Shown here: positions 153 through 13,769 of the stretch, in pieces
Position numbering within the stretch: position 1 is the stretch's first letter
Layout: every line of letters starts with the position of its first letter
From: Candidatus Desantisiibacteriota bacterium
GTDB lineage: Bacteria > JACRDZ01
Length of the DNA stretch: 13,769 nucleotides
Direction: 5' to 3'
Assembly (NCBI GenBank): GCA_016209155.1
Contig: JACQWU010000206.1
Coordinates: forward strand, 1 to 13,769
The notes under the pieces: generated by a model
Databases searched by the model: none
Seen by the model: the letters and a program-made list of their open reading frames with translations, nothing else
Told to the model about the DNA's origin: nothing
Translations under genes and position numbers: made by a program

Positions 153-154
153 TA

Positions 155-559
155 AATACTTTTGGATTTTATGTTGTTCCAGGTTTAGTAAGCATTGGAA
201 CAATCTTTAGTTACATATCTGGTTATGGTATCTACCTGATCAGTTTAATTATTATTGGATTTATCCTAACTGGATGGCAGGGGTTGATGGCCTTATTTGC
301 TGCAAAAAGTTTAGGTTGGGTTATAACATTTTTTATTGAATTATTACAAACCAAAAGGATTTACAACTTAGGTGGGCATGCCTTTACAGCTTCAGAAAGA
401 AATTTTTTCAATGCTTATCGGCTTCATGCTTCAAGAATGGGAGTAACAACAAATATTGATGTGGCAGATGAAGAACTAAAGGAAGAATACTATATGAAAT
501 CTCTCGAAGAACTTTCATATAAATGGCCAGAAGTAGTAAATAGGTTTACTACAGATTGA
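155..559 (+). pseudogene. Membrane protein gene, 5' end removed by the ISL3 insertion
   Basis: The frame is open from the IS boundary to the stop at 557-559, giving about 134 residues without a usable native start; a TTG at 284 would only start a shortened product. The first part is hydrophobic, with two likely membrane helices (roughly VVPGLVSIGTIFSYI and YLISLIIIGFILTGW) and a third around ALFAAKSLGWVITFFIELL. A soluble, acidic tail of about 70 residues follows. I recognise no family. The unit ends in the attC at 637-690. Bases 560-636 hold no gene that I can see. The gene was probably a cassette ORF encoding an integral membrane protein, now interrupted unless translation restarts inside it. 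Confidence 0.65.
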
Positions 560-636
560 TAGATTTCTTATAAGAATCGGAGTTAGAATATTAGAATAAA
601 CTAACTTCAAAAGCATAAAAATAAAACAATAAAACC

Positions 637-690
637 GTCTAACAAATCACTGCACCTGATTTTGCCTGCGGCAAAACAGGTGAGTTCAAA
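637..690 (+). repeat. attC site of the first cassette
   Basis: R'' is GTCTAAC (637-643) and the R'-like end is GTTCAAA (684-690), a weak match to GTTRRRY. Between them is a strong stem, CACCTG then TTTTGCC, loop TGC, then GGCAAAA and CAGGTG, with one unpaired A. This 54-bp site belongs to neither of the two main attC families of the array. Its right arm contains AGGTGAG five bases before the ATG of the next gene, so the site also appears to supply the ribosome binding site. Confidence 0.65.
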
Positions 691-1529
691 TGTTCGATCA
701 AGAAATAATAAAAAAAATGATAAAGCTTATTGATCTGATAAGTTTAGCTGGTATAACGATGGGAAAATTCAAAATCCATTGTGCTACGGGGTCAAATCCC
801 GCTCCACTTGAGGCGTTTTATGACGACAAATTTAAAAAGTGGCAAGAATATCAAAATAACCGCAACTTCAAATGCGACCATATCATATCCTTGATCCACC
901 TTGGCGGTTCTGATTGGCTCTTTGCTGGGATTTACAAAGTCAACGGTATTCGGCCAAAATCAAACAATGAAAAATCATGGTTCGAGTATTCGACATCCGA
1001 ACTCCCCGGTTTAGATCATCTCACCGGACGTGCCATAATAGTATTCAACAAGAATTTTAGAGCCTCTTATCTGATAGGTGACCGATATGCTTCCCTATTG
1101 TTGGTAAAAGAGATCAAACCGGAACGGCAGTCAATCGGGGACTTTCCAGGGTACAACAAAGTCTGTTTGCCGCTTCGAGGACTCAAGACAGTTGTCCGTC
1201 AGCAACTTCAAAGCTGGAAAACGGCATTGAGCAACATCGCTGGTGTTTATCTAATCTCTGATACAATGACCGGAAAACAATACGTTGGTAGCGCATACGG
1301 CGACATTGGAATCTGGCAAAGGTGGTGTGCCTATGCTACCACCGGCCACGGAGGCAACAAGGAGCTAAGAGATTTACTGAGAGAAAAAGGCGATGATTAC
1401 GCGCTTAATTTTCTGTTTACAATTCTTGAGGTTATTGACCTTAATGCAAGCAAAGAATATATCACCGCTCGCGAATGCCATTGGAAGGATGCTTTACTGA
1501 CAAGGCAATATGGATATAACAGCAACTAA
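690..1529 (+). CDS. GIY-YIG nuclease-family protein with an unknown N-terminal domain
   Basis: The 279-residue product has two parts. Residues about 1-175 form a domain I do not recognise, with features such as FKCDHIISLIHLGGSDWLFAG. Residues about 183-279 look like a GIY-YIG nuclease domain: GVY at 185-187, YVG at 198-200, an arginine at 211 (IWQRW), a candidate metal-binding glutamate at 262 (ARECHW) and the family-typical YGYN near the end (N277). GIY-YIG domains cut DNA with one divalent metal ion, so the expected role is endonuclease, perhaps targeted by the N-terminal part. The start at 690 is supported by AGGTGAG at 678-684 inside the preceding attC. It is a single-gene cassette. A homing, restriction or anti-phage role is possible but unproven. 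Confidence 0.75.
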   Translation: MFDQEIIKKMIKLIDLISLAGITMGKFKIHCATGSNPAPLEAFYDDKFKKWQEYQNNRNFKCDHIISLIHLGGSDWLFAGIYKVNGIRPKSNNEKSWFEYSTSELPGLDHLTGRAIIVFNKNFRASYLIGDRYASLLLVKEIKPERQSIGDFPGYNKVCLPLRGLKTVVRQQLQSWKTALSNIAGVYLISDTMTGKQYVGSAYGDIGIWQRWCAYATTGHGGNKELRDLLREKGDDYALNFLFTILEVIDLNASKEYITARECHWKDALLTRQYGYNSN

Positions 1530-1544
1530 GAATAAAACTAAATG

Positions 1545-1619
1545 ATCGAACAAGGCAATCCAGGTAATTTTATTCCGCGGCAAAGCCGCTCCATAAAATA
1601 CCTGATTTTCGTGTTATAG
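1545..1619 (+). repeat. attC site, CAGGTAATTTTAT family
   Basis: R'' is ATCGAAC (1545-1551) and R' is GTTATAG (1613-1619). The arms CAGGTA-A-TTTTAT and ATAAAA-TACCTG pair with one extra A on the left arm. The inner part GCGGCAAAGCCGC forms a tight GC hairpin. Related copies occur at 2675, 11194 and 12834, and a half copy at 7459. The AGGT overlapping the right edge (1618-1621) lies eight bases before the next start codon and can act as its ribosome binding site. Confidence 0.85.
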
Positions 1620-1629
1620 GTAAAAAATT

Positions 1630-2457
1630 ATGACTAAAAAAAATGTTTTAATATTTTGTGTTTTGTTTTTATTATTCTGCATTACAGCACAGGCTGGAAC
1701 ATTTACCATCCCTGACTGGTTGATAAACTCATGTGTTTTTATTATGCGTGGTGAAGAAGTTAACGGGACAGGTTTTCTTATTTGGATTAAAGAATATGAT
1801 TCCAACTTTTGTTATCTTGTTACAGCAAAACATGTGGCTCAATCTGTTTTGAGTAATACTCAAGACCCTTTAAAAATACGTTTTAATCTAAAGGAAGGTA
1901 ATAATGCAAAAATCTTTGATTTTCCAACCTTCAACTTTAAAGGAAAAAGGTGGATAGAACATGAAAATCCCACAATAGATATTGCGGTCATTCCACTTAC
2001 TATCTTTGACAAAGTGTCGAAACTTGAAGTAGGAGTTCGTATAATAGAAAGCCCCGAAGACGAATTTTTAGCGACAACTCAATGGATTAACAAATACAAG
2101 GTAGCTCCTGGAGACCAGGCATTTAGCCTTGGTCTTGTTCCGTATCTTTATGCAAAAGATCAAAAGAATCTTGTCTTATCAAGGTTTGGCACTATTTCTC
2201 TTCTCCTTGACCAGGAAATCAACTTGCCTGGTGGTAAACAAAAAGCATATTTTCTTGACTGTCAAGCTTTTCCAGGCAATAGTGGAGGGCCCGCATTTGT
2301 TCTTATTGAGCGTTCAGAAGAAGGCCCGCTTCTTTCTGGCTGGCGCTTCGGATTATTAGGTGTCGTTGCGGAATTTGTACCAAGCGCTCTTCGAACTAAT
2401 ATAGTTGATATTCAAGATACACAACACCAGACAACAATTCAATTAATTGAACATTAA
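1630..2457 (+). CDS. Secreted trypsin-like serine protease
   Basis: The 275-residue product begins with a signal peptide: K3-K4, a hydrophobic stretch, and a probable cleavage after AQA at about residue 22. A chymotrypsin-type triad is readable: His68 in LVTAKHVA, Asp117 in TIDIAVIPL and Ser218 in FPGNSGGPAF. This predicts a periplasmic or secreted peptidase. No PDZ domain follows. The chain ends about 55 residues after the active serine and may be slightly shorter than relatives. The start is close to attC (AGGT at 1618-1621). A 49-residue ORF with its own strong ribosome binding site follows 41 bases later in the same cassette, so the two may act as a pair. The substrate is unknown. Confidence 0.85.
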   Translation: MTKKNVLIFCVLFLLFCITAQAGTFTIPDWLINSCVFIMRGEEVNGTGFLIWIKEYDSNFCYLVTAKHVAQSVLSNTQDPLKIRFNLKEGNNAKIFDFPTFNFKGKRWIEHENPTIDIAVIPLTIFDKVSKLEVGVRIIESPEDEFLATTQWINKYKVAPGDQAFSLGLVPYLYAKDQKNLVLSRFGTISLLLDQEINLPGGKQKAYFLDCQAFPGNSGGPAFVLIERSEEGPLLSGWRFGLLGVVAEFVPSALRTNIVDIQDTQHQTTIQLIEH

Positions 2458-2648: not shown

Positions 2649-2674
2649 AAAAGAAATTGAATATTAACTAAACC

Positions 2675-2748
2675 CTATAACAAAGCAATCCAGGTAATTT
2701 TATTACGCGGCAAGCCGCTCCATAAAATACCTGATTTTTGTGTTATCT
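2675..2748 (+). repeat. attC site, CAGGTAATTTTAT family
   Basis: R'' is CTATAAC (2675-2681) and R' is GTTATCT (2742-2748). The arms match the family copy at 1545, again with the extra A on the left arm. The apex differs slightly (ACGCGGCAAGCCGC, one A fewer in the loop). An in-frame GTG within the site (2740) could extend the next gene upstream, but a better start exists at 2782. Confidence 0.85.
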
Positions 2749-2781
2749 GAAAATAATAAAACCATTATTAGGAGGTTACAA

Positions 2782-4389
2782 ATGGGATCCTTATACTTGA
2801 ATAGATTATCACAAAAAGAAAGAGAAGCTTTAATCGAAAAATTATTCCAATCTCAAAAAGAAATTTGCTTCATTTGCGAAAAAACAATTGACCTTAAACT
2901 TCACAAAGATGCTCTTGATATTGACCATATTGTTCCTACAAAATTAAACGGGAAGGATGACCCCGTTAATTTTGCGTTAACACATTCAAGTTGTAACAGA
3001 TCAAAACAAGCGTCCGACCTTAATATAGCAAGGATACTTAATCACTTTGATGAGCTTAAAAATAATATTTCCTCTGAAAACCGCGGTCCCAATTTAGACG
3101 ATATTTTGAAATCAAAGAGCGGCTCACAATACGAAATAATATTTAACAAACAAAATGGGAAGATTAAATATTCTCTCCCCGAAATTGGCAATAATCAAAT
3201 CTTTGATTTGCCTGTTTATATAGATGCACTCAGTGGGTTTGAATACTTTTTTACAAATCTTCCAATAGAGTATCTTTATCATGATGACAAAATTAATCCG
3301 AGGTCAATTGGAGAGAACATATCTAAGTTAATTCACGAGTTTTATTTAAAAAGGCCACAATTACACATTTCTCTGGCTTGGATCGACCTTAACTGTCCGA
3401 AAACCAAAGTAAAAGTTTTTGACGGGCAACATAAAGCGTCGGCTCAAATATTGCTCGGAGTAAAACAATTGCCAGTTAGAATTTTTATTAATCCCAATCC
3501 TGATATTTTATTAACGACCAATACAAACGCTGGAACGACTTTAAGACAGGTAGCATTTGATAAATCTGTTCAACGTCACTTAGGTAGCGCTTTGTATCTT
3601 GATAGAATTGACAGATATAAAACTGACTGCAATTTGTCTAATGATAATTATAACTTTTCAGAAAGGGATTTATTGAAGTACTTTAAAGGTGAGTCAAGAG
3701 AAATGAAACGATATATTTTGGATGCAGTTAGAGATTCAATTACCCACAATCCCGAAAACAAATTAAAAGATTATATTGATTTTGGCGGGAGAGGTAAAGA
3801 TAGACCCCTATCATACAGCACCATAGAGAAAACATTTTACTCTTTCTTTATCTTTCAGGATGTTTTAGAAACACCTATCAATTACCGGTTAGAAGAAGGT
3901 GGAAATCCGAGAGAATTAGAGAAAGAACAAATCCTTGAGTTAATGAACTTAATTGCAGAAGAAATATTTATTGGTAAATTTGACGGCGATATTGGCACAA
4001 GTCAGATTGAAAGTAAGATTCAAAAAGGAGAGAACTTGCCGCTACCTCATATACGGGCGTTTAGAATGAGCAAAGAAGAAATTCTCTACAACTGGCTCAG
4101 ATATATTGAACAAATAATAAAAAACTATTTCATTATGCAGGGCAAACCAATTCAAGAAAGCAAATTATTCCAATATAAATTTCCAGAGCCTTTATGGGAG
4201 AGGATCAAAATATTCATAAAAAATATTGCTAATCTGCCAGTCTGGATAAATAAAGAACTATCCTCAACTGTTTTCGGTGGTAAACAGGTTAATGATTATT
4301 GGCAAACAATTTTTGAAACGGGAAAATCATCGCAAGGATTACAAGTATTAGCGGAACCAATTGATTTAATGAAAATGATTAAAGATTAA
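2782..4389 (+). CDS. HNH endonuclease fused to a DGQHR/DndB-like domain
   Basis: From the ATG at 2782, preceded by AGGAGG at 2770-2775, the product has 535 residues; the GTG at 2740 inside attC is less likely. Residues about 27-80 form an HNH nuclease: CFIC (29-32), DIDHIVP with D48-H49, and HSSCNRSK (68-75), giving paired cysteines for zinc plus the His and Asn of the motif. Around 214-218 is DGQHK, followed by QILLGVKQLPVRIFI and an NTNAGTTL stretch. This resembles the DGQHR motif of DndB-like and ParB-related proteins. The C-terminal half (about 290-535) is mostly helical and unrecognised. It is the largest gene here and is alone in its cassette. A nuclease that senses modified or foreign DNA is a reasonable but untested inference. 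Confidence 0.75.
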   Translation: MGSLYLNRLSQKEREALIEKLFQSQKEICFICEKTIDLKLHKDALDIDHIVPTKLNGKDDPVNFALTHSSCNRSKQASDLNIARILNHFDELKNNISSENRGPNLDDILKSKSGSQYEIIFNKQNGKIKYSLPEIGNNQIFDLPVYIDALSGFEYFFTNLPIEYLYHDDKINPRSIGENISKLIHEFYLKRPQLHISLAWIDLNCPKTKVKVFDGQHKASAQILLGVKQLPVRIFINPNPDILLTTNTNAGTTLRQVAFDKSVQRHLGSALYLDRIDRYKTDCNLSNDNYNFSERDLLKYFKGESREMKRYILDAVRDSITHNPENKLKDYIDFGGRGKDRPLSYSTIEKTFYSFFIFQDVLETPINYRLEEGGNPRELEKEQILELMNLIAEEIFIGKFDGDIGTSQIESKIQKGENLPLPHIRAFRMSKEEILYNWLRYIEQIIKNYFIMQGKPIQESKLFQYKFPEPLWERIKIFIKNIANLPVWINKELSSTVFGGKQVNDYWQTIFETGKSSQGLQVLAEPIDLMKMIKD

Positions 4390-4395
4390 AAAAAC

Positions 4396-4454
4396 AGATA
4401 ACTTGTTAATATAGCCGACGGCAAAAAGCGCCGCGGCTGATTATAATGTTATCT
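4396..4454 (+). repeat. attC site, 59 bp, unique type
   Basis: R'' AGATAAC (4396-4402) and R' GTTATCT (4448-4454) are exact reverse complements. Inside, AGCCG-A-CGGC pairs with GCCG-C-GGCT around an AAAAAGC loop. The site resembles neither main family, so this cassette probably came from a different source than its neighbours. Confidence 0.8.
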
Positions 4455-4480
4455 ATAAAAAACAAATTGGGGGAAAATCG

Positions 4481-4858
4481 ATGAAATGCTACTACCATGT
4501 TGAAAAGGATGCTATTGGGATCTGTAAAAACTGCAACAAAGGTCTTTGTAAAGAATGCGCTGTTGATGTTACCAATGGGTTAGCTTGTAATAATTCATGC
4601 GAAGAAGAAGTCAAAAAAATAAATGAAATAATTTCGCGAGGAAAAACGGCATACAGAAAAACTGGAAAAGCATATTTACATAATGCGATAATATATGGAT
4701 TATTAGGTTTATTTTTCGTTTTAATAGGATTTTATTCTTTATTTACGGACGGACATTCCTCATCAGTGTTGTTTATTCTTCCAGCAGGAATAATATTATT
4801 ACTAGGAGGGTTTTTCTCCTATACAAATAGTAAAAAAATATCTAAAATAGAAGGATAA
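4481..4858 (+). CDS. B-box-type zinc-binding protein with two membrane helices
   Basis: The 125-residue product starts with a compact cysteine/histidine cluster: C3, H6, C15-x2-C18, C23-x2-C26, C36 and C40. The pattern resembles bacterial B-box-like zinc fingers, which read CYYH...GICKNCNKGLCKECA. A basic linker and two hydrophobic segments follow (about 69-88 and 95-114), then a short lysine-rich tail. This suggests a cytoplasmic zinc module anchored to the inner membrane, probably for protein contacts. A GGGGG run 7-11 bases before the ATG can serve as the ribosome binding site. It is a single-gene cassette. The family is known in bacteria but without a clear function. Confidence 0.7.
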   Translation: MKCYYHVEKDAIGICKNCNKGLCKECAVDVTNGLACNNSCEEEVKKINEIISRGKTAYRKTGKAYLHNAIIYGLLGLFFVLIGFYSLFTDGHSSSVLFILPAGIILLLGGFFSYTNSKKISKIEG

Positions 4859-4862
4859 AACT

Positions 4863-4939
4863 AGATAACAAATCGCTTCAGCTAACTGGTGAGCACGTTC
4901 TATGAAGCTCACCCCAGTAGCTGAGCTCTGGTGTTAGAT
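4863..4939 (+). repeat. attC site, CAGCTAACTGG family
   Basis: R'' is AGATAAC (4863-4869) and R' is GTTAGAT (4933-4939). CAGCTA-A-CTGG pairs with CCAG-TAGCTG with one extra A, and GGTGAGC pairs with GCTCACC around a short loop. Close copies are at 8576, 9358 and 11788. The sites at 5562 and 10076 share only the outer parts. Confidence 0.9.
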
Positions 4940-4961
4940 GAAAAAATAAAAAGGAAATAAA

Positions 4962-5567
4962 ATGATTGCAATCGCATTCGCCATCGTATTAATTCTTATA
5001 ATTCTTATCGTAGTTTCAATAAAATCAACAGGAAATATTAAACTAGTATTTTTGTCAATATCAACGCTTGCCATCATTGTTCCTATAGCCCTTATTCTCT
5101 CGATCAAACCTGCACAACAAGGGAAAATATTGCCTCAATGGGGAAAGATATCTTTATTATTCTTTGAACCAAAAGATTTATGGGAACCGCTCGCACAAGC
5201 ATCGCTCGAACAAAATAAAAAAGAATATAATTTTGTCTTTTCCCATAAATACGTGGGGAATCATGACATCGAGATTGTTCTCTCCAGGCCAGAAATAGAC
5301 ATTTGGAAAATTGAAAAAAACGGCTTAAGCCTAACTGTTTCAATCTATAATGAAACGAATAAAATATTTTCAAAAACAACGTCCTACGTTGGCGCCTTTA
5401 AGGGATTACGCGGTAGCGGGCTCACATACCTAAGCTACTCATTGCCTGAAGATTTACCCATAAATAAAGAATTAAAAGTAAAAATTGAAATAACCGGAAA
5501 TATTGAAAATTTTATAAATCAATACGGTAGTGCTAAATTAATAATTAAAAAAAGCTCTGACATCTAA
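4962..5567 (+). CDS. Membrane-anchored protein of unknown function
   Basis: The 201-residue product has two hydrophobic segments near its N-terminus (about 2-20 and 28-47), then a soluble domain of about 150 residues rich in beta-type patterns (VLSRPEIDIWKIE, LSLTVSIYNETN, LKVKIEITG). I do not recognise the family. By topology the soluble part could face either side of the membrane. AAGGA lies 6-10 bases before the ATG. The last residues are DI, and the stop TAA (5565-5567) lies inside the R'' heptamer of the next attC, so the gene uses the recombination site to end translation. It is a single-gene cassette. Confidence 0.65.
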   Translation: MIAIAFAIVLILIILIVVSIKSTGNIKLVFLSISTLAIIVPIALILSIKPAQQGKILPQWGKISLLFFEPKDLWEPLAQASLEQNKKEYNFVFSHKYVGNHDIEIVLSRPEIDIWKIEKNGLSLTVSIYNETNKIFSKTTSYVGAFKGLRGSGLTYLSYSLPEDLPINKELKVKIEITGNIENFINQYGSAKLIIKKSSDI

Positions 5568-5629
5568 CAACTCGCTTCAGGCAATCGGAACCGCTGCGCG
5601 TTTCCTCTGCCTGAGCTCCGGCGTTAGAA
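5562..5629 (+). repeat. attC site, 68 bp, outer parts shared with the CAGCTAACTGG family
   Basis: R'' is ATCTAAC (5562-5568) and R' is GTTAGAA (5623-5629). The site keeps the outer CGCTTCAG and CTGAGCTCCGGCGTTAG parts of the family, but the inner stem differs (GGCAATCGGAACCGC against GCGTTTCCTCTGCC). It shares its length and outer parts with the site at 10076. R'' carries the stop codon of the upstream gene. Confidence 0.8.
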
Positions 5630-5680
5630 AAATAATTTTAAATGAATAAAAAAAATATTCTAATTAGAACAGTTTAACAA

Positions 5681-6091
5681 ATGACTATTAATTATAAAAT
5701 TAAACAAATTGAAATTTTATTGACTAAGGTTAAATACGAAAATAGTTTTCTTACAAAAGAAGAAAAGGATGAATTATTGGAACGCTGGATAAGTTCAACG
5801 GATAGTAATCGTAAAAGAATACATGATTTCATGGATCCTGATTTGTCTGGTTTTGTAATAGGTGTGCAATATTCAGCTATTTGTGATGATCGTTCATGTG
5901 ATTTTTGTCAAAGCCACAACGGTGAGTCTCTAAAAATTGACGATCCCCTGATAAAAGAAAATACACCGCCGATTCATTTAGGCTGTAGATGCATATGGTC
6001 ACCTATAACTAAAATCGAATTTGAACGAGGAAAGATTAATTTTACTTGGAGTACTATTAAAAAGCCAAACTTAGATCTCATCACATTTTAA
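5681..6091 (+). CDS. Protein with phage minor-head (Mu F / SPP1 gp7)-like cysteine motif
   Basis: The 136-residue product has a helical, charged N-terminal half. Its C-terminal half carries the cluster CDDRSCDFCQSHNGE (C68, C73, C76) and PPIHLGCRCIWSPI (H99, C102, C104). This layout resembles the conserved end of phage Mu gpF / SPP1 gp7-type minor head proteins, usually C-x2-C-x4-DG followed by PP-H-xx-CRC. Those proteins are longer and act in capsid assembly; here only the short putative metal-binding end is present. No clear ribosome binding site precedes the ATG, so the start is less certain. The region 5630-5680 holds nothing else. It could be a domesticated phage fragment or a small protein using the same fold. 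Confidence 0.55.
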   Translation: MTINYKIKQIEILLTKVKYENSFLTKEEKDELLERWISSTDSNRKRIHDFMDPDLSGFVIGVQYSAICDDRSCDFCQSHNGESLKIDDPLIKENTPPIHLGCRCIWSPITKIEFERGKINFTWSTIKKPNLDLITF

Positions 6092-6128
6092 AAAATAAAT
6101 AAAATTTTTGAATTTAAATAGAAAACAT

Positions 6129-6166
6129 TTCTAACAAATCATTTTTGCTTTCACACGGTGTTAGGT
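6129..6166 (+). repeat. Short degenerate attC-like site, 38 bp
   Basis: TTCTAAC (6129-6135) and GTTAGGT (6160-6166) have the form of R'' and R' (CTAACA pairs with TGTTAG). The 24 bases between them show no convincing internal stem. The site probably lost its palindromic centre by deletion and may no longer recombine well. Confidence 0.45.
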
Positions 6167-6186
6167 TAAAAAAGGAGAGAAAAATA

Positions 6187-6747
6187 ATGAAAAGAGGTTT
6201 AATTTTTATATTGTTTATATTTATACTTTTTTTAAACAGCAACGCCTATGCAATTATTTTCACAGTAGATGCTGACCTTAATTCAATCACTTCTACTTAT
6301 TATCAAAATATTATTCCCCCGTATTCCGTTACTCATCTAGATACAAACTTATTTTTGAATAACGGCGATTTCCTTGAGATTTCTGCTTCTGGCACTTGGA
6401 GTAATGCTCCCACATCATATAATCTCATATTTGGCCCCAATGGAAATCCTAATGAAAATATTGCCCTTTCATATCCTGGCGCGGGTTATCCCGTCGCAGC
6501 TTTAATGGGAAAAATCGGCGATGGAGATTATTTTTTTATCGGCAGTAGTTATTCAAACTACGTGACTGAAAATGGCATCCTATATTTAGGATTCAATGCT
6601 ACTGATTATGGAAATAACTGGGGGACTGTTAATGCGGATGTAAACATTACAGAAACAAACAGTCCCGTCCCTGAACCAGCGACAATGCTGTTATTCGGAC
6701 CAGCTCTATTGAGCTTAATCTGTTATAAACGAAAAAACAATAGATAA
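6187..6747 (+). CDS. PEP-CTERM sorted extracytoplasmic protein
   Basis: The 186-residue product has a signal peptide (KR, hydrophobic core, probable cleavage after AYA at residue 22), a central beta-rich domain with many Asn, Tyr and Gly, and a C-terminal sorting signal. That signal is VPEPATM (PEP at 162-164), then a hydrophobic stretch and a basic end, KRKNNR. Such tails are known to be recognised by exosortases, so the genome should encode one. AAAGGAGAG before the ATG at 6187 supports this start over an in-frame upstream start at 6145 that lies inside the attC-like region. No attC follows; the next gene starts 28 bases after the stop behind its own promoter. The function of the central domain is unknown. 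Confidence 0.85.
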   Translation: MKRGLIFILFIFILFLNSNAYAIIFTVDADLNSITSTYYQNIIPPYSVTHLDTNLFLNNGDFLEISASGTWSNAPTSYNLIFGPNGNPNENIALSYPGAGYPVAALMGKIGDGDYFFIGSSYSNYVTENGILYLGFNATDYGNNWGTVNADVNITETNSPVPEPATMLLFGPALLSLICYKRKNNR

Positions 6748-6769: not shown

Positions 6770-6775
6770 TTTTTC

Positions 6776-7042
6776 ATGATTACTCAAGAAGATAAAAATA
6801 AAATTAGCGAGTTGGCAAAAAAATATCATATTTCTCAAGTGCTTTTATTTGGATCTGCGCTCAAAAATGACAGCTTCAATGATATTGACCTAGGTATTAA
6901 GGGAATAAACCCAGAATTGTTTTTTAAATTCTATGGCGAACTGCTTTTTGCCCTTTCTAAATCTGTGGATTTGGTGGACCTGGATATAGACAATCCCTTT
7001 ATCACCTTTGTACAGCAGGAAGGGATAAAAATTTATGGCTGA
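6776..7042 (+). CDS. MNT-type nucleotidyltransferase antitoxin, module 1
   Basis: The 88-residue product has the minimal nucleotidyltransferase fold. G26-S27 (LLFGSALK) is followed after eight residues by D36-I-D38, and a third acidic strand (VDLVDLD) comes later. In characterised MntA-type antitoxins the motif is usually GSx10DxD, so this copy has a spacer two residues shorter. Known family members transfer AMP to a tyrosine of the partner HEPN toxin and so silence it. The gene overlaps the HEPN gene by eight bases. No ribosome binding site is visible and the -10 box is six bases upstream, so leaderless translation is likely. Confidence 0.8.
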   Translation: MITQEDKNKISELAKKYHISQVLLFGSALKNDSFNDIDLGIKGINPELFFKFYGELLFALSKSVDLVDLDIDNPFITFVQQEGIKIYG

Positions 7043-7457
7043 TTTGCAGCAGCGAATAAAAATCGAAATTTATAATATTACCGAAGCCTTAGAAGAAATC
7101 AATAATATAAAAGACAAAAAGAATAAAACAAAAATAGAACTGGCCGGTATTGCTACTTATCTGCATAATTTTTACAGCGGTATCGAAAATATACTTAAGC
7201 AAATATTGGCAGAAAAAGGCATTAAGATTGCAAAAACTGAATTCTGGCATAAAACCCTGCTAAATATTTCCGTAGAAAATAAAATCATATCCTTGGAATT
7301 CAAGGACGCCCTATCAGATTATTTAGCCTTCCGTCATTTTTTTGTTCACTCCTACGGTTTCATGCTGGACGAACGCCGATTGTTGTCTCTCACAAAAAAT
7401 GCTGAAAATATATTTCACGAATTTAAAGAAAATATTAAACAATATTTAACAATTTAA
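7035..7457 (+). CDS. HEPN-domain (HepT-like) toxin, module 1
   Basis: The 140-residue helical product contains RHFFVHSYGF, an exact R-x4-H-x-Y motif (R100, H105, Y107). In HepT-type toxins the Arg and His form the ribonuclease site and the Tyr is the residue modified by the MntA antitoxin. The gene overlaps the preceding antitoxin gene by eight bases, so translation is probably coupled. The cassette's attC follows at once (7459) but is cut by a REP-like element. Module 1 is the only TA pair here whose attC is broken. Confidence 0.82.
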   Translation: MADLQQRIKIEIYNITEALEEINNIKDKKNKTKIELAGIATYLHNFYSGIENILKQILAEKGIKIAKTEFWHKTLLNISVENKIISLEFKDALSDYLAFRHFFVHSYGFMLDERRLLSLTKNAENIFHEFKENIKQYLTI

Positions 7458-7458
7458 T

Positions 7459-7512
7459 TTCTAACAAATCAATCCAGGTAATTTTATTCCGCGGCAAAGC
7501 CGCTCCATAAAA
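7459..7512 (+). repeat. Left part of an attC site (CAGGTAATTTTAT family), right end lost
   Basis: R'' TTCTAAC (7459-7465), the left arm, the GCGGCAAAGCCGC apex and CCATAAAAT are present. The expected ACCTG end and R' are missing. A REP-like sequence begins at about 7513. Without R' the site cannot be a normal attC, so the two units on either side are now joined as one. Confidence 0.8.
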
Positions 7513-7576
7513 TGAGGGCGCTGAGGGACGTAGATAAAAGTATAAAAGAGTAACCTGGGTCAAGTCTCGCCTTGAC
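7513..7576 (+). repeat. REP-like element, copy 1
   Basis: GGACGTAGATAAAAGTATAA and the following AAGAG recur at 13040-13062. Here they are followed by CCTGGGTCAAGTCTCGCCTTGAC, where GTCAAG (7559-7564) pairs with CTTGAC (7571-7576). Such short hairpins near GGGTCAAG are seen around REP-associated transposases in environmental bacteria; the assignment is tentative. The element sits exactly where an attC was cut and a gene lost its 5' end. Confidence 0.6.
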
Positions 7577-7586
7577 TACATGTTAA

Positions 7587-7811
7587 TTTGAACCAGCATA
7601 TTTAATCAACAAAATATCTAGAAGAACGCCTTTATCAAACTTTTCATCTAATAATGCACCTGATGCTGCGGTTTTTATATCAGAAGACTTTGCCGAAGAT
7701 ATTAAAAAGGTTGTTGATTATATTTTTACGCAGTCTCCATCATGTCCTGCTTTACAAAGAAATATTGAAACTTGGTACAATCAACAACCACCAATAATTG
7801 GGGATATCTAA
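7587..7811 (+). pseudogene. 5'-truncated cassette gene of unknown function
   Basis: The frame opens after a stop at 7584-7586 and runs 74 codons to a TAA at 7809-7811 that lies inside the next R''. It has no ATG, GTG or TTG in frame. The product contains DAAVFISEDFAEDIKKVVDY and a cysteine/proline stretch (QSPSCPAL), and ends IIGDI. The intact end at an attC and the missing start show that it is the C-terminal remnant of a cassette gene whose front was deleted when the REP-like element arrived. I recognise no family. Confidence 0.6.
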
Positions 7812-7892: not shown

Positions 7893-7904
7893 ATATACTA
7901 TCTA

Positions 7905-7933: not shown

Positions 7934-7940
7934 AAATACT

Positions 7941-8249
7941 ATGATTAAAGATAAAAAGGAAATTTTAAATCTCATAAAAAATAACCAAAATGACATTGTG
8001 TCTTTCGGCGTAAAACAACTTGGTCTTTTTGGCTCGTTCGTTAAGGGAAAACAAAACCCTGAAAGCGATATTGATTTACTTGTTGAATTCTACCCTGATA
8101 AAAAAAACTTTGCTAATTTCATTCACTTTTCCTTTTTACTTGAAACATTATTAAAACATCGCATAGAATTAGTAACTTCCGAATCATTAAGCCCTTATAT
8201 TAAACCTAATATATTACGAGAGGTCGAATATGTCATTTCCCGGGCATGA
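7941..8249 (+). CDS. MNT-type nucleotidyltransferase antitoxin, module 2
   Basis: The 102-residue product has LGLFGSFVKG with G31-S32, then ten residues and D43-I-D45, an exact GSx10DxD motif. The third acidic position is a glutamate (HRIELVT), which the nucleotidyltransferase fold tolerates. In this family the enzyme adds AMP to the HEPN toxin. Its gene overlaps the toxin gene by 20 bases, which suggests coupled translation. A strong promoter sits directly upstream with no room for a leader or ribosome binding site. The cassette begins after the attC at 7806 and ends with the one at 8576. Confidence 0.87.
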   Translation: MIKDKKEILNLIKNNQNDIVSFGVKQLGLFGSFVKGKQNPESDIDLLVEFYPDKKNFANFIHFSFLLETLLKHRIELVTSESLSPYIKPNILREVEYVISRA

Positions 8250-8574
8250 ATATCTTCTCCATATATTGGATGAAACAAAATATATTTTAAGTCAAACAAA
8301 AGTATTGACTAAAGAAGATTTTATGCAGAACGAAACACTCCAAAGAGCGTTTGTCCGTAGTATAGAAATTATCGGAGAGGCTACAAAAAATACCCCTGAC
8401 AATTTAAAACAAAAACATCCTTATATAGAATGGCGAGCTATGGCTGGCATGCGGGATATATTAATACATGATTACTTCGGCATAGATTATGATATTGTAT
8501 GGGATGTAGTTATTAACAAAATCCCCTCTCTCCATAAAGAAATCGAAAAAATTATTCAGGAAGAAAATAAATAA
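8230..8574 (+). CDS. HEPN-domain (DUF86/HepT-like) toxin, module 2
   Basis: The 114-residue product is a DUF86-type HEPN protein with an FVRSIEIIGEATK helix and MRDILIHDYFG, an exact R-x4-H-x-Y motif (R75, H80, Y82). The family is a ribonuclease toxin controlled by the adjacent nucleotidyltransferase. The ATG at 8230 is preceded by GAGGT (8220-8224) within the antitoxin gene. An attC starts two bases after the stop codon. It is closer in type to module 3 than to module 1. Confidence 0.87.
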   Translation: MSFPGHEYLLHILDETKYILSQTKVLTKEDFMQNETLQRAFVRSIEIIGEATKNTPDNLKQKHPYIEWRAMAGMRDILIHDYFGIDYDIVWDVVINKIPSLHKEIEKIIQEENK

Positions 8575-8575
8575 C

Positions 8576-8652
8576 TTCTAACAAATCGCTTCAGCTAACT
8601 GGTGGGCACGCTCAATGAAGCACATCCCAGTAGCTGAGCTCCGGCGTTAGGA
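8576..8652 (+). repeat. attC site, CAGCTAACTGG family
   Basis: R'' is TTCTAAC (8576-8582) and R' is GTTAGGA (8646-8652). The outer arms are as in the site at 4863; the inner arm is altered (GGTGGGC against GCACATCCC). R' plus the next base gives AGGAG, eight bases before the ATG at 8662, so the site supplies the ribosome binding site of the next gene. Confidence 0.9.
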
Positions 8653-8661
8653 GCTAAATAA

Positions 8662-8871
8662 ATGAACTGGATATTAATAATCGTTGGAGTTGTAGCAAGA
8701 TTTCTCATAATACAACGATGGTTTTGGATAATAGTATTATTTTTTGGCGGACTCGCATCTCTATTCGCCATGATAGCCAGCATTATTCATTTTCAGATTC
8801 TTGGTGCATTATGTTTTTTTGTTTTAATGGCAATTTGCTGGGGCATACTTAGCTTAATCACTGAAGAATAG
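8662..8871 (+). CDS. Small membrane protein, 69 residues
   Basis: The product is almost wholly hydrophobic, with likely helices at about 3-18, 20-43 and 46-66, ending LITEE. No family is recognised. The ribosome binding site AGGAG (8649-8653) overlaps R' of the preceding attC. The gene has no attC of its own: the HicBA module starts 58 bases after its stop. Either an attC was lost between them or the two travel as one cassette. Small membrane proteins beside toxin modules are sometimes passengers, so no link in function is claimed. Confidence 0.6.
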   Translation: MNWILIIVGVVARFLIIQRWFWIIVLFFGGLASLFAMIASIIHFQILGALCFFVLMAICWGILSLITEE

Positions 8872-8929: not shown

Positions 8930-9133
8930 ATGATTCTTAAAATTATTTTAGAACCTAGCGATGAAGGCGGTTATACTGTAGTTGTCCCTGCTTTGCCGGG
9001 TTGCATTAGCGAAGGGAACACGAAAGAAGAAGCATTAAAGAATATTCGCGAAGCAATTGAACTTTATCTGGAGCCCGTAGAAGACGATGCCACCTTCTCC
9101 GTCAATGCCGAACAAGTAGAAATAACGGTATGA
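8930..9133 (+). CDS. hicB: HicB-family antitoxin
   Basis: The 67-residue product has the HicB fold signature: GGYTVVVPALPGCISEG, then TKEEALKNIREAIELYLE. It is the short type, with no C-terminal helix-turn-helix, so direct repressor activity is uncertain. It should bind and neutralise HicA. GGGAGG lies 7-12 bases before the ATG. Its stop overlaps the hicA start by four bases (ATGA), which indicates coupled translation. The antitoxin-first order is found in many environmental HicBA loci. Confidence 0.9.
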   Translation: MILKIILEPSDEGGYTVVVPALPGCISEGNTKEEALKNIREAIELYLEPVEDDATFSVNAEQVEITV

Positions 9134-9354
9134 AAGTTCCAAGCGTAAATTATCAGCAAGCCATAAACGTTCTTCACCGTGACGGCTGGGTTGTTGTCCG
9201 TCAAAAAGGAAGCCACATTCGCTTACAAAAACACGTTAACAATGAAACACTCAAAATTATCGTTCCCGCTCATCGGCCAATTAAACGGTCAACGCTATCT
9301 CATATTTTAAAACAAGCGCAAATCTCTATAGATAAATTCATTGAATTACTATAA
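9130..9354 (+). CDS. hicA: HicA-family mRNA interferase toxin
   Basis: The 74-residue product has the HicA pattern: DGWVVVRQKGSHIRLQ, with the catalytic His at 29, and IIVPAHRPIKRSTLSHILKQA near the end. HicA is a double-stranded-RNA-binding-fold ribonuclease that cleaves mRNA and is blocked by HicB. All expected residues are present, so it should be active. The attC begins three bases after the stop codon. Confidence 0.92.
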   Translation: MKVPSVNYQQAINVLHRDGWVVVRQKGSHIRLQKHVNNETLKIIVPAHRPIKRSTLSHILKQAQISIDKFIELL

Positions 9355-9357
9355 AAT

Positions 9358-9430
9358 TCCTAACCGCTTCAGCTAACTGGTGGGCACGTTCTATGAAGCT
9401 CACCCCAGTAGCTGAGCTCCGGCGTTAGAT
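9358..9430 (+). repeat. attC site, CAGCTAACTGG family
   Basis: R'' is TCCTAAC (9358-9364) and R' is GTTAGAT (9424-9430). The core is nearly the same as the site at 4863, but the ACAAATC segment after R'' is mostly missing, which makes it about four bases shorter. The extra A in the stem is kept. Confidence 0.88.
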
Positions 9431-9446
9431 TAAAAAAATAGAATAT

Positions 9447-9493: not shown

Positions 9494-9691
9494 ATGGAAA
9501 AAGTATTGGTTAATTCAGATAAATATAATGGGCAATATGTTGCGATAAAAAGTGCCACTGATAATACCATTATAGGATCGGGCAATACGCCAGAAGAGGC
9601 TTTAAACAAGGCACTAAGAAAAGGCATTAAAAACCCCTTTCTTCTGTACGTTCCAGATGAAGGAATAGTACACATTTATTATGTTAGTTGA
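9494..9691 (+). CDS. DUF5678-like small protein
   Basis: The 65-residue product has YVAIKSATDNTIIGSG, then TPEEALNKALRKGIKNP and FLLYVPDEG. It matches from memory the small DUF5678-type proteins often encoded just before retropepsin-like genes. No catalytic motif is visible. Its last 11 bases overlap the protease gene. With its own promoter and overlapping partner, the pair has the layout of a TA module, but I know of no demonstrated toxicity. Confidence 0.7.
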   Translation: MEKVLVNSDKYNGQYVAIKSATDNTIIGSGNTPEEALNKALRKGIKNPFLLYVPDEGIVHIYYVS

Positions 9692-10076
9692 AAATTATCC
9701 TTTTACAATCACCAGGCCAGGAGATATTGCAAGGCCGTATATTCCAATCACAATCATTAACCCCGAAAATAAAAAAGAACTGAATGTATTTGCCTTAATT
9801 GATACTGGTGCCGATGAATGCGCACTACCAGCCTCGTTTGCCCCGCCATTAGGCCATAATTTACAATCAGGATATCAGAAAAAAATAAGCACGGGCAATG
9901 GCATAACTGTGGCATACAGCCATACAGTTTATATTAAAGCTTTTGATTTTCTAACGGAAAATGTGTTGATAGATTTTATGCCAAATCTACAAATACCATT
10001 GCTTGGAGTTAAAAGCTTCTTGAGTAATTTTACTTTAAAAATTGATTATACGGATAAAAATTTTTCAATTCTATAA
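9681..10076 (+). CDS. Retropepsin-like aspartic protease
   Basis: The 131-residue product has the single-domain aspartic protease motif ALIDTGADECALP (D41-T42-G43-A44) and a later IPLLGVKSFLSNFTLKIDY segment typical of this bacterial family. Such enzymes act as homodimers, each chain giving one catalytic Asp, and are cytoplasmic when no signal peptide is present, as here. The gene overlaps the DUF5678-like gene by 11 bases, so the two products are likely to be made together and may interact. The last base of the stop codon is the first base of the attC. Confidence 0.8.
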   Translation: MLVENYPFTITRPGDIARPYIPITIINPENKKELNVFALIDTGADECALPASFAPPLGHNLQSGYQKKISTGNGITVAYSHTVYIKAFDFLTENVLIDFMPNLQIPLLGVKSFLSNFTLKIDYTDKNFSIL

Positions 10077-10143
10077 TCTAACAATGCGCTTCAGCGAATT
10101 TGTACCGCTGCGCGGCCCAAATCGCTGAGCTCCGGCGTTATGT
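10076..10143 (+). repeat. attC site, 68 bp
   Basis: R'' is ATCTAAC (10076-10082) and R' is GTTATGT (10137-10143). It keeps the GCTTCAG and CTGAGCTCCGGCGTTA outer parts of the CAGCTAACTGG family with a different centre (CGAATTTGTACCGCTG against CGCGGCCCAAATCG). It is similar in length and outline to the site at 5562. Confidence 0.8.
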
Positions 10144-10396
10144 GAAGATAAAAAAAGAAAGTAATAATAAAAATTATTCAGGATGGAAATGGAACAAAAA
10201 AATTCCATTTACTCCTTTACACTACTTAATTTTTATAATCGCTATTGTGTTAATTTTAATTATTTTGGAGCACTTTGTAGTAAACACAAATTTACTGGAT
10301 AACTCAAAACTAATAATATGTATAATAGCACTAATTCTTATATTTGCATTTCACATAAGTCATCATTTTGTAGATGAAAATGAAGATAAAAAATAA
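10142..10396 (+). CDS. Small two-helix membrane protein
   Basis: A GTG at 10142, overlapping the last bases of R', gives an 84-residue product. Longer readings would start inside the attC stem, and the only nearby ATG (10140) is followed directly by a stop. The protein has a basic N-terminal tail (KIKKESNNKNYSGWKWNKK), two hydrophobic helices (about 27-46 and 57-74) and an acidic/basic end (HHFVDENEDKK). No family is recognised. Neither a ribosome binding site nor a promoter is seen, so the start is the least certain part. It is a single-gene cassette that would rely on transcription from upstream. Confidence 0.5.
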   Translation: MKIKKESNNKNYSGWKWNKKIPFTPLHYLIFIIAIVLILIILEHFVVNTNLLDNSKLIICIIALILIFAFHISHHFVDENEDKK

Positions 10397-10404
10397 AATA
10401 AAGC

Positions 10405-10512
10405 ATATAACCACTTCATACACCTGACCGTTACCCGCGCCGAAAACGGCGCGTGCACTGGCAACTAATTTTTATGTGGGTTGAAAAATTATAAAAATCC
10501 ATCACGTTAGAA
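10405..10512 (+). repeat. Probable long attC site, 108 bp
   Basis: ATATAAC (10405-10411) and GTTAGAA (10506-10512) fit R'' and R'. A seven-pair hairpin, CGCGCCG loop AAAA CGGCGCG (10436-10453), lies off-centre within it. The outer arms pair poorly, so the exact limits are uncertain. Confidence 0.5.
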
Positions 10513-10568: not shown

Positions 10569-10871
10569 ATGCTGGATATAAAACCTTATGAGGAACAAAT
10601 AAAAAAAATTTGCATTGAATTACAACTTAAACGATTGGATTTGTTCGGCTCTGCAACAACTGAAAATTTTGGGTCAAATAGTGATGTTGATATAATAGTT
10701 GAATTCAAGAAGGATGTTGATCTCAACCGATTTGACAGCTATTTTCTATTAAAAACCCATTTGCAAAACATTTTTCATCGTCCAATTGATATAATAATTG
10801 ATGGAACAATTAAAAACCCTTATCTCAAAGAAAATATTTCCCAGACAAGGAAGAATATATATGCCTCATGA
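10569..10871 (+). CDS. MNT-type nucleotidyltransferase antitoxin, module 3
   Basis: The 100-residue product has LDLFGSATTENFG with G27-S28, ten residues, then D39-V-D41, an exact GSx10DxD motif, and a third acidic strand, RPIDIIIDG. It should transfer AMP to the HEPN partner, as described for the family. A good ribosome binding site and its own promoter precede it. It overlaps the toxin gene by 11 bases, counting the toxin from the ATG at 10861. Confidence 0.87.
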   Translation: MLDIKPYEEQIKKICIELQLKRLDLFGSATTENFGSNSDVDIIVEFKKDVDLNRFDSYFLLKTHLQNIFHRPIDIIIDGTIKNPYLKENISQTRKNIYAS

Positions 10872-11199
10872 AATCAAGAAATATCTTTTTGATATTCAGC
10901 AAGCTATTGAACAAATAGAAACATTCCTCAAGGATAAAACCTATGAACACTTTATCGTTGAATCCATCCTGCAATCTGCAGTAGAAAGGCAATTTGAAAT
11001 AATTGGAGAAGCCTTATATAGAATCAGGAAAATTGATGAAACTTATTTATCTAAAATTGCTGATGCGCACAAAATAATTGGCTTTAGAAACGTAATTAGC
11101 CATGGCTATGATATTATTGATTCTAATATAATTTGGGACGCCGTAAAATTAAACCTGCCAAAACTAAAAAATGAAATTAATAATTTAATGAGAATCTAA
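10861..11199 (+). CDS. HEPN-domain (DUF86/HepT-like) toxin, module 3
   Basis: From the ATG at 10861 the product has 112 residues and begins MPHEIKKYLFDIQQ. An in-frame ATG at 10798 would add 21 residues that overlap the antitoxin gene by a further 63 bases, which is unlikely; AAGGAAG (10847-10853) fits the later start. The motif FRNVISHGYD is an exact R-x4-H-x-Y (R76, H81, Y83), giving the ribonuclease residues and the tyrosine target of the antitoxin. The stop codon lies inside R'' of the next attC. Confidence 0.87.
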   Translation: MPHEIKKYLFDIQQAIEQIETFLKDKTYEHFIVESILQSAVERQFEIIGEALYRIRKIDETYLSKIADAHKIIGFRNVISHGYDIIDSNIIWDAVKLNLPKLKNEINNLMRI

Positions 11200-11268
11200 C
11201 AAGACAATCCAGGTAATTTTATTCCGCGGCAAAGCCGTTCCATAAAATACCTGATTTTTATGTTATAT
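11194..11268 (+). repeat. attC site, CAGGTAATTTTAT family
   Basis: R'' is ATCTAAC (11194-11200) and R' is GTTATAT (11262-11268). It is almost the same as the site at 1545, with one C-to-T change in the inner stem (GCCGTTCC) that weakens a pair. R'' supplies the stop codon of the HEPN gene. Confidence 0.88.
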
Positions 11269-11322
11269 ACAATTAAAAGCTAAACATTATTAATAAGAAA
11301 AACATAACTTGGGAGGAGACAT

Positions 11323-11769
11323 ATGAAACTTAAGAAATATATAGCCCATTTTGCTTTAGTATGTTGCTTATTATGTATAATAACATCCTCTGGATGCACA
11401 AGCTTAATTTGGAGCGGTAAACCATTTCAACCTTTTCAACCGAAAATAGCAGAAGATGAAATTTGCATATTAACATATAATATAATTCAACTATGTATAA
11501 CTATTGATGGTAAAAAAGGAATTAGCGGAAATAAAATAGGCCTGCCCTCTGGAAAGCACACAATTGGAGTTTTTTATAGAGATCGAAACTTAAATTATCA
11601 ATCTGAACAAGCTGTCACTTTAGACTTCTACGGAGTAGCAAAACATGTATACGCTCTTTCACATAGTGTAGATTATAACAGTAAAAAAATTTATTATTCC
11701 ATTAAGGATATCACAGGCAACAAATTTAGCACTGCATATATTGAACCAAAATCATGGAAAAAGCAGTAA
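11323..11769 (+). CDS. Putative lipoprotein of unknown function
   Basis: The 148-residue product starts with a lipoprotein signal: MKLKK, a hydrophobic stretch, then SSGC with the candidate lipidated cysteine at 25. The serine at -3 is unusual but acceptable. Residue 26 is not aspartate, so transport to the outer membrane is likely. The mature part is beta-rich, with LPSGKHTIGVFYRD resembling domains that bind or decorate surface structures, but I assign no family. GGGAGGAG (11311-11318) is an excellent ribosome binding site. It is a single-gene cassette with no promoter seen. Confidence 0.75.
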   Translation: MKLKKYIAHFALVCCLLCIITSSGCTSLIWSGKPFQPFQPKIAEDEICILTYNIIQLCITIDGKKGISGNKIGLPSGKHTIGVFYRDRNLNYQSEQAVTLDFYGVAKHVYALSHSVDYNSKKIYYSIKDITGNKFSTAYIEPKSWKKQ

Positions 11770-11787: not shown

Positions 11788-11868
11788 ATTTAACATAATC
11801 AATTCACTTCAGCTAACTGGTGAGCACGCCAGGGAGCTCACCCCAGTAGCTGGGCTCAAGCGTTATGA
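11788..11868 (+). repeat. attC site, CAGCTAACTGG family
   Basis: R'' is ATTTAAC (11788-11794) and R' is GTTATGA (11862-11868). CAGCTA-A-CTGG and GGTGAGC pair with GCTCACC and CCAG-TAGCTG as in the copy at 4863. The terminal loop is shorter (ACGCCAGGGA), and about four extra bases follow R''. Confidence 0.88.
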
Positions 11869-11875
11869 TCAAAAA

Positions 11876-12312: not shown

Positions 12313-12573
12313 ATGCCGGAAATATGCAGATTTTTAGGAATAATAATATCAATGTATTATAACGAACATGCTCCTCCACATTTTCATGCTAAATATGGTG
12401 AAAGCCGGGCATCTTTTTCAATTGATGAATTAAAAATTATTGAAGGCGCAATGCCAAAACGTATTATTTCTCTTATATTGGAATGGGCATTTGAACACAG
12501 AACCGAATTGTTAGAAGACTGGTCATTAGCACAAAAGCATGAAGAGTTAAAAAAAATTAATCCACTCGTATAA
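12313..12573 (+). CDS. DUF4160-family protein (probable TA partner)
   Basis: The 86-residue product has the DUF4160 pattern: MPEICRFLGIIISMYYNEHAPPHFHAKYG, a central FSIDELKIIEG and an EWAFEHRTELLEDW helix. The His cluster APPHFHA is the hallmark of the family. It is almost always encoded directly before a DUF2442 gene, and the pair is commonly treated as a TA-like module, though the biochemistry is not well established. An ATG five bases earlier (12308) is in another frame and closes quickly. Confidence 0.85.
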   Translation: MPEICRFLGIIISMYYNEHAPPHFHAKYGESRASFSIDELKIIEGAMPKRIISLILEWAFEHRTELLEDWSLAQKHEELKKINPLV

Positions 12574-12585
12574 CAAGGAGTCAAA

Positions 12586-12831
12586 ATGCATTGGATAAAA
12601 GATGTAAACTATATTGAAAAATATAGGCTAAAATTAAAATTTGAAAATAATGAGGTTAAAGAAGTTGATTTAGAAAAACATTTAAATGGCACTGTTTTTG
12701 AACCGCTTAAAGATATTAACTTTTTCAAAAAAGTATCCCTCAATTCTGACATCGATACCATTGTCTGGCCTAACAATGCGGATTATTCTCCGGATTTTTT
12801 ATATAAAATTGGAAAACCAGTAAATAATTAA
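12586..12831 (+). CDS. DUF2442-family protein
   Basis: The 81-residue product matches DUF2442: a KDVNYIEKYRLKLKFENN start, VDLEKHLNGTVFEPLKD, and FFKKVSLNSDIDTIVWPNNAD with the typical DTIVWPN-AD-SPDFLY end. The family is the usual partner of DUF4160, probably the antitoxin side by analogy with related pairs (inference). AAGGAG (12575-12580) lies five bases before the ATG. The gene is 12 bases after the DUF4160 stop, so the two form an operon. The attC starts three bases after its stop. Confidence 0.85.
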   Translation: MHWIKDVNYIEKYRLKLKFENNEVKEVDLEKHLNGTVFEPLKDINFFKKVSLNSDIDTIVWPNNADYSPDFLYKIGKPVNN

Positions 12832-12833
12832 AA

Positions 12834-12914
12834 TTATAACAAAGCAATCCAAGTAATTTTATTCCGCCCCGACTTTTTCGGGGCTCCATAAAATACCTGA
12901 TTTTTGTGTTAGGA
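12834..12914 (+). repeat. attC site, CAGGTAATTTTAT family with a replaced apex
   Basis: R'' is TTATAAC (12834-12840) and R' is GTTAGGA (12908-12914). The outer arms are as in the family, with CAAGTA instead of CAGGTA. The usual GCGGCAAAGCCGC tip is replaced by GCCCCGA loop CTTTT TCGGGGC, a perfect seven-pair hairpin. Folding is thus kept although the sequence changed. Confidence 0.85.
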
Positions 12915-12924
12915 ATATAAAAAA

Positions 12925-13020
12925 ATGGATACAAGAATAAATGAATGGGCGAAATTAAAATTTATTGATCCTATAAGCACTCTTTCTCAATTAAGACGGA
13001 GCGTTGGTGGACGTAGATAA
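12925..13020 (+). pseudogene. 3'-truncated cassette gene
   Basis: An ATG at 12925, ten bases after AGGA of R', opens a frame whose first 23 codons (MDTRINEWAKLKFIDPISTL and following) look like a normal gene start. From codon 24 the frame runs into the tandem REP-like repeat and stops at 13018-13020. The rest of the gene is gone. I recognise no family. Confidence 0.55.
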
Positions 13021-13074
13021 AAGAGACGGAGCGTTGGTGGACGTAGATAAAAGTATAAAAGAGGGGACTGACCC
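12994..13074 (+). repeat. REP-like element, copy 2, with a 30-bp tandem duplication
   Basis: Two exact 30-base units starting AGACGGAGCGTTGGTGGACG lie at 12994-13023 and 13024-13053. They are followed by TATAAAAGAGGGGACTGACCC. The part from GGACGTAGATAAAAG onward matches copy 1 at about 7526-7550. Like copy 1, it joins a gene cut at its 3' side to a gene cut at its 5' side. Confidence 0.7.
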
Positions 13075-13079
13075 TATAA

Positions 13080-13247
13080 ACTATTGACAAAATTAACGCC
13101 CCCCCTGCCTTATTATCCAGGATAATACGCGATAACACGCAATATAGGAAAGATATTTCGGTATGGCCTTGTGTTGGCGGTTTGGAAGCAAAACCAGCGC
13201 TAATAACAAGCAAAAAAATGATTGCCGCGGTAAAAGATAAGGATTAA
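13080..13247 (+). pseudogene. 5'-truncated gene fragment right of REP-like copy 2
   Basis: The frame is open for 55 residues from just after the stop at 13077-13079 and ends KKMIAAVKDKD. It includes DISVWPCVGGLEAKPALITS. There is no good start codon near its beginning. It is probably the C-terminal end of a gene whose front was lost at the REP-like junction, but it could also be part of the inserted element itself. I recognise no family. Confidence 0.35.
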
Positions 13248-13280
13248 AATAGAAACACGTATAAAAATCACAAAAACAAA

Positions 13281-13323
13281 AGAAAAAGTCTGTTGGTTGG
13301 CTTTTTCTACAGGCTCGTTAGGT
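13281..13323 (+). repeat. Possible degenerate attC right part with hairpin
   Basis: AGAAAAAG (13281-13288) and CTTTTTCT (13301-13308) pair around a 12-base loop. GTTAGGT (13317-13323) matches R'. No clear R'' (ending AAC) is found upstream. It may be a decayed attC between the fragment and the last gene, or simply a weak hairpin. Confidence 0.35.
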
Positions 13324-13352
13324 GAAACCACTAACTGAATTCTGAAAAATTT

Positions 13353-13769
13353 ATGGGCAATCAAGATTATAAAAGACCAGATATCCCCAAGAAGGCCAAA
13401 CCTTATGCGTTGTTGTCTGTTTTCTTATTTGTTGTTTCCTCTTCCTTGACCTTTTTTGCTTTGGTATTTAAATCAATTCCTATTTTTATGTTTGCTCTCC
13501 CTTCCTGGGGATTATTAACTATCATAAAGGTTTTATACAATAAAATGGTTCCTCTGCCACTACGGAAAGAAATTAACGAAAAAATTCTTTCGCCTTTACC
13601 TGTGGACGAAAATAACCAAGAAAGCGTTTTAATTCCCGTTCGTAAACACTCCCGGAAAATTTACTACGGTATAGTTGTCCCCGTGATTGCAATCATCTTT
13701 CTTTTAGCGGTGTTATTCTTTGCAAATAATCATACTAATTTTACACTCTGGACTAACTTAATTTTTTTG
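13353..13769 (+). CDS. Membrane protein, 5' part (runs off the window)
   Basis: From the ATG at 13353 the frame stays open for 139 codons to the last base. The product starts MGNQDYKRPDIPKKAKPYAL. It has hydrophobic helices at about 19-38 and 42-60, a charged region of about 45 residues (with LPLRKEINEKIL), and another helix near 106-124. No family is recognised. No ribosome binding site is obvious. A GTG at 13323 is in the same frame but meets a stop before the ATG. It fits the array's pattern of one small gene per cassette. Confidence 0.6.
   Translation, partial: MGNQDYKRPDIPKKAKPYALLSVFLFVVSSSLTFFALVFKSIPIFMFALPSWGLLTIIKVLYNKMVPLPLRKEINEKILSPLPVDENNQESVLIPVRKHSRKIYYGIVVPVIAIIFLLAVLFFANNHTNFTLWTNLIFL

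Follow-up and report, generated by a model that had tools for sequence, protein, structure and literature searches.

A mixed-family attC cassette array that very likely belongs to a sedentary chromosomal integron of Candidatus Omnitrophota

We analysed a stretch of 13,769 nucleotides (the window), which is one whole contig of a MAG sized 3.08 Mb and 78.8% complete (the host bin), and found that it is a genuine integron cassette array of about 15 cassettes. The array is very likely the middle part of a sedentary chromosomal integron from a groundwater Candidatus Omnitrophota bacterium, on a contig that was probably assigned to the wrong MAG. This type of integron is already known, and the Omnitrophota array is a further example of it. 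A first-pass annotation of the window had described an array of one orientation with roughly 17 cassettes; the reading as an array and the single orientation hold, with 12 attC sites recognised by a covariance model, all on the bottom strand, and the number of cassettes is somewhat lower than first counted.

A complete integron on a near-identical contig

A search of 84,980 species genomes with the pattern of one of the attC families (family 2, below) led to JACQZH010000043.1, a contig of a Candidatus Omnitrophota MAG (G098) that is 99.8-100% identical to bases 153-13769 of the window. Along the ~13.6 kb that they share, the cassettes follow one another in identical order on both contigs. On this contig an intI gene with the IntI-specific region lies at 4861-6183 on the minus strand, diverging from the array, and its product scores 417 bits against TIGR02249 (cut-off 265). 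There are about 20 attC sites, located from 7140 to 28656. An attI junction lies beside intI: GTTATGAG, in front of the first cassette, pairs with the R'' of that cassette, CTCATAAC. The location is chromosomal and without a mobile platform, as a recJ-like gene precedes intI and rlmN-like and YraN-like genes follow the array (all three named by reading of their translations). Neither an intI nor any recognised chromosomal gene is present on the window contig itself; the intI that the first-pass annotation had proposed to look for to the left of the array is found on the Omnitrophota contig. An intact IntI of the host bin, encoded on its contig C206, was considered as the integrase of the array and rejected, given that no attC was seen there and that the intI belonging to the array lies on JACQZH010000043.1. 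The host bin also has an internally deleted integrase on C158 (158-592) and an integrase fragment on C240 (2746-3036).

The window and the Omnitrophota contig differ by an IS insertion, by indels of 111 bp and 288 bp, and by a few substitutions. Therefore, the window is not the same assembled contig as JACQZH010000043.1. Judging from the alignment, the IS end at 1-152 and the indels are a strain difference between the two copies.

The RpoB proteins of the host bin and of the Omnitrophota MAG are only 57.6% identical, compared with 62-63% between the host bin and its own phylum. Because the window is nearly identical to the Omnitrophota contig despite this distance, the window contig, which holds cassettes only and ends at an IS, was probably mis-binned. 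It is improbable that the binning is correct and that the array instead passed very recently from an Omnitrophota cell into the phylum of the host bin. Such a transfer would fit a host bin that has a full-length integron integrase, likewise of the extended type, and a few scattered attC sites of its own, as well as the IS insertion and indels that have no counterpart in the Omnitrophota copy. However, it would have to have moved the whole run of consecutive cassettes with order and sequence preserved, onto a contig that shows no host chromosomal gene and bears a repeat element that the host bin otherwise lacks, and a parallel pair of contigs (G100:C129 and G099:C44) suggests that wrong assignment of such contigs is possible. 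GC content did not clearly separate the candidate hosts.

In this parallel pair, G100:C129 and the integron contig G099:C44 are 99.98% identical over 11.4 kb, while the RpoB proteins of their two Omnitrophota bins are 82% identical; either mis-binning or a very recent transfer would explain this.

attC sites and the distribution of their families

We built a covariance model (R1) from the bottom strands of 10 of the window's sites, with a stem in which one side carries two bulged bases. R1 matched 11 sites at 52.9-79.2 bits and a half site at 33.3 bits, every one of them on the bottom strand; the highest score on the top strand was 23 bits, and very few matches were found elsewhere in the host bin genome. 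Sites outside the training set scored too: those at 9357 (60.2 bits, E 1.6e-14) and 7458 (E 4.7e-7) were recovered, and the one at 4395 gave a weak match (17.4 bits, E 0.011). The stem covaries: 96% of cells are paired, two-sided changes number 20 where shuffling gives a mean of 7.4, and all slid controls were far lower. Both bulged bases are on one strand, the common arrangement in attC, and the sites form an array of canonical structure in a single orientation. An Rfam search of the window gave no match, and the plain attC consensus RYYYAAC...RTTRRRY matched the window less often than its own control.

All sites are on the minus strand. Family 1 comprises the sites at 4862..4940 (78.9 bits), 8575..8653 (79.2 bits), 9357..9431 (with a shortened spacer) and 11792..11869 (68.6 bits, with a mutated R''). 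Family 2 comprises those at 1544..1620 (73.9 bits; its R'' pairs 5/5 with the R' at 692), 2674..2749 (75.9 bits), 11193..11269 (76.6 bits) and 12833..12915 (68.2 bits), together with the half site, the left part of a site interrupted by a repeat element (7458..7513). The two families have one structural design in common and differ in inner stem and sequence. Both had been noticed in the first pass, and R1 finds them at the same positions. Two sites described there as relatives of family 1, at 5561..5630 (64.5 bits) and 10075..10144 (69.8 bits), do have family 1 outer arms, but their inner stem is a different one.

Four further sites had been listed as fitting neither family. The first is a minor type with R' GTTCGATC at 636..699, which R1 recognises at 52.9 bits. 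The second, at 4395..4455, is divergent with perfect ends: its R1 score is weak, its fold z is -4.95, and its ends pair 5/5 on both sides. The other two are doubtful, as R1 found no match near 7806 or 10405 and the fold z values are -1.1 and -2.1; at the latter, a possible attC with a degenerate R' (10404..10487, fold z -2.07) has an R'' that pairs 4/5 with the R' at 10137. A degenerate site that the first pass had not listed, at 6128..6167, has lost its stem (R1 13.4 bits, E 0.15) and retains matching ends, with R'' TTTCTAAC against upstream GTTAGAAA, pairing 5/5 with the R' at 5623. The array lacks the uniformity typical of sedentary chromosomal integrons, in which most attC sites are near-identical, and has two main and several minor families.

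Both main families occur, with several further attC types, in four Omnitrophota genomes (G098, G099, G100 and G101) whose RpoB proteins are 82-86% identical. Among the 84,980 species genomes, the family 2 pattern gave attC matches only in Omnitrophota; five matches outside this phylum were discarded, as they were without attC ends and had no R1 match. The family 1 pattern did not occur in any of 385 other genomes, and neither family was found in the contigs examined from the remainder of the host bin and from three relatives in its phylum, or in the viral contigs searched; the patterns are narrow, and these absences are only as good as exact matching. Clustering at 75% identity, which served as a guide only, merges the sites at 5561 and 10075 with family 2.

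The co-occurrence of both families in four Omnitrophota genomes means that the mix is no sign of unrelated hosts. The first-pass annotation had taken it to suggest capture from more than one host lineage and had looked to hits in different phyla for support; in the genomes searched, the families were found in Omnitrophota only. Its premise, that a sedentary integron holds mostly one attC type, describes a general tendency of chromosomal integrons (PMC5371416), to which exceptions are known, since attC sites are very variable in some phyla (PMC9668308). Capture of the cassettes from two different host phyla is quite improbable. In its favour, neither the inner stem nor the sequence is the same in the two families, taxa that share an environment exchange attC types (PMC8352920), and one other attC type is near-identical across several phyla; nevertheless, finding both families together in four Omnitrophota genomes, and in neither pattern search a true site outside that phylum, argues against it. 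On these genome comparisons, the mixture characterises Omnitrophota integrons and does not argue that cassettes were taken up from several phyla. A set of two main attC families and several minor ones, all of one structural design, probably circulates in Omnitrophota, where mixed arrays are normal, and exchange among Omnitrophota lineages is possible.

The attC type shared between phyla starts with GCGCTCCACCTGACCGCTATTCCGCTG and ends with GGCAGGTGAGCTTGG, and is near-identical in G030, G002, G058 and G004. It is a better candidate for cross-phylum exchange of cassettes.

Cassette ends and cassette contents

Integron integrases cut at G|TT, so that each cassette starts with an R' remnant and ends with an R'' that both derive from one site. 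For every site, we compared the five bases beyond GTT in its R' with the R'' of the site that follows. The match was perfect in 7 of the 14 cassettes, and the summed score of 55 (permuted mean 34.6) was reached in none of 200,000 permutations; within single sites, R' and R'' matched at a mean of 2.5 of five bases. The test gave 3/100,000 on the near-identical Omnitrophota array (G098:C18), which is mostly the same array as the window's, and 21/100,000 on the independent array G099:C44. Cassette boundaries thus lie at G|TT, with matching R' and R'' belonging to one cassette, and this complementarity within cassettes demonstrates that they were placed by site-specific recombination. Reading the palindromes as ordinary repeats or as terminators is almost certainly wrong: the inverted repeats do sit between genes, but the complementary cassette ends of neighbouring sites, the covarying stem with two bulges and the homologous contig with a full integron refute this reading. 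The integrase encoded beside the array would cut each attC at G|TT after folding its bottom strand into a hairpin, and circular cassettes would be inserted at attI or excised from the array. We infer from the sequences that this integrase is active and uses both attC families.

All cassette genes of the window are on the plus strand. The first is interrupted by the 3' end of an ISL3-family transposase (1..152, plus strand; NCBIfam NF033550, E 4.5e-7 over the last 35 residues), which is not a cassette and was found elsewhere neither in the host bin nor in the Omnitrophota genome; the rest of the truncated ORF occupies 153..559, and the Omnitrophota copy has an intact ORF of 214 aa. The next cassettes encode a candidate phage defence protein (690..1529; PADLOC UzuA, PDLC03973, E 1.4e-66), a trypsin-like protease that lacks 111 bp of the Omnitrophota copy (1630..2457; PF13365, E 2.9e-5, below the cut-off), a protein with an HNH endonuclease domain (2761..4389; PF01844, E 2e-8), a small membrane protein (4481..4858), a protein without a Pfam match (4962..5567), a Phage Mu F-like or SPP1 gp7-like protein (5681..6091; PF04233, E 1.8e-9; TIGR01641) and a PEP-CTERM protein (6187..6747; PF07589, over the cut-off).

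Three MNT/HEPN toxin-antitoxin pairs are present, at 6776..7457 (PF18765, E 2.6e-10; PF20797, E 5.5e-20), 7941..8574 (PF01909, E 8.7e-14; PF01934, E 9.3e-29) and 10569..11199 (PF18765, E 3.8e-12; PF01934, E 1.3e-19). A HicB/HicA toxin-antitoxin pair lies at 8930..9354 (PF15919, E 1.4e-13; PF07927, E 2.8e-15). Domain matches identify a DUF5678 protein with a clan AA aspartic protease at 9494..10076, and a DUF4160 and DUF2442 pair lies at 12313..12831 (PF13711, E 9.6e-23; PF10387, E 3.3e-13). An ORF at 11323..11769 has no Pfam match, and the last one (13353..13769) runs off the contig and has 266 aa in the Omnitrophota copy. The element that interrupts the family 2 half site, GGACGTAGATAAAAGTATAAAAGAG (7515..7590, plus strand), has a related copy near 13001-13063 and a 94.7% identical copy on another contig (G098:C79) of the Omnitrophota MAG, and no further copy was found in the rest of the host bin.

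On JACQZH010000043.1, the first two cassettes behind attI (6320-8775) hold genes for a TIR protein (PDC-S35, E 5e-70) and for a reverse transcriptase of the AbiP2-like kind (E 2e-203), which by these matches are candidate phage-defence genes. Large integrons commonly carry cassettes with toxin-antitoxin and defence genes.

The integrase and relation to known integrons

The closest solved integrase is IntI4 (VchIntIA) of Vibrio cholerae (PDB 2a3v), whose whole catalytic and core-binding region is matched by residues 114-434 of the Omnitrophota integrase (E 3.3e-75). Unlike IntI4, the Omnitrophota integrase has ~100 further N-terminal residues; the extension measures 98-110 residues among integrases from Omnitrophota and from the phylum of the host bin (e.g. 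L027:3227-4516). It weakly resembles a core-binding domain (hhalign probability 80%, E 1.4e-5), and two stretches of the host bin integrase match a SAM-like domain. In a tree of a small sample, calculated without the extension, these integrases are still set apart from the others by a branch that has 100/100 support. A literature search for an N-terminal integrase extension of this kind found none. These proteins might form a distinct branch, shared by Omnitrophota and the host bin's phylum, in which the N-terminal extension is a second core-binding-like domain that enables a single integrase to act on several attC families; attC types common to a whole phylum would then serve cassette exchange among its members. 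We regard this idea as doubtful.

Like the superintegron of Vibrio cholerae, a sedentary chromosomal integron, the Omnitrophota integron has an intI diverging from the array, an attI junction, many cassettes in one orientation and toxin-antitoxin cassettes. It differs in having several attC families per array in place of one dominant type, in its attC length of ~62-118 bp and in its Omnitrophota host. With the integrons reported from archaeal MAGs (Ghaly et al. 2022, PMC9668308) it shares its MAG origin, the many arrays without intI on the contig, attC sites that are very variable in some phyla and the concern over mis-binned contigs; in contrast to these, the phylum is bacterial and a complete integron with chromosomal flanks is at hand. 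Our literature search for Omnitrophota integrons found no mention of them.

For cassette contigs and attC mixtures in MAGs, binning should be checked before cross-phylum transfer is read from them. A complete integron with chromosomal flanks is now available for Omnitrophota, and the comparison of genomes shows that arrays across a whole phylum can hold several attC types together.
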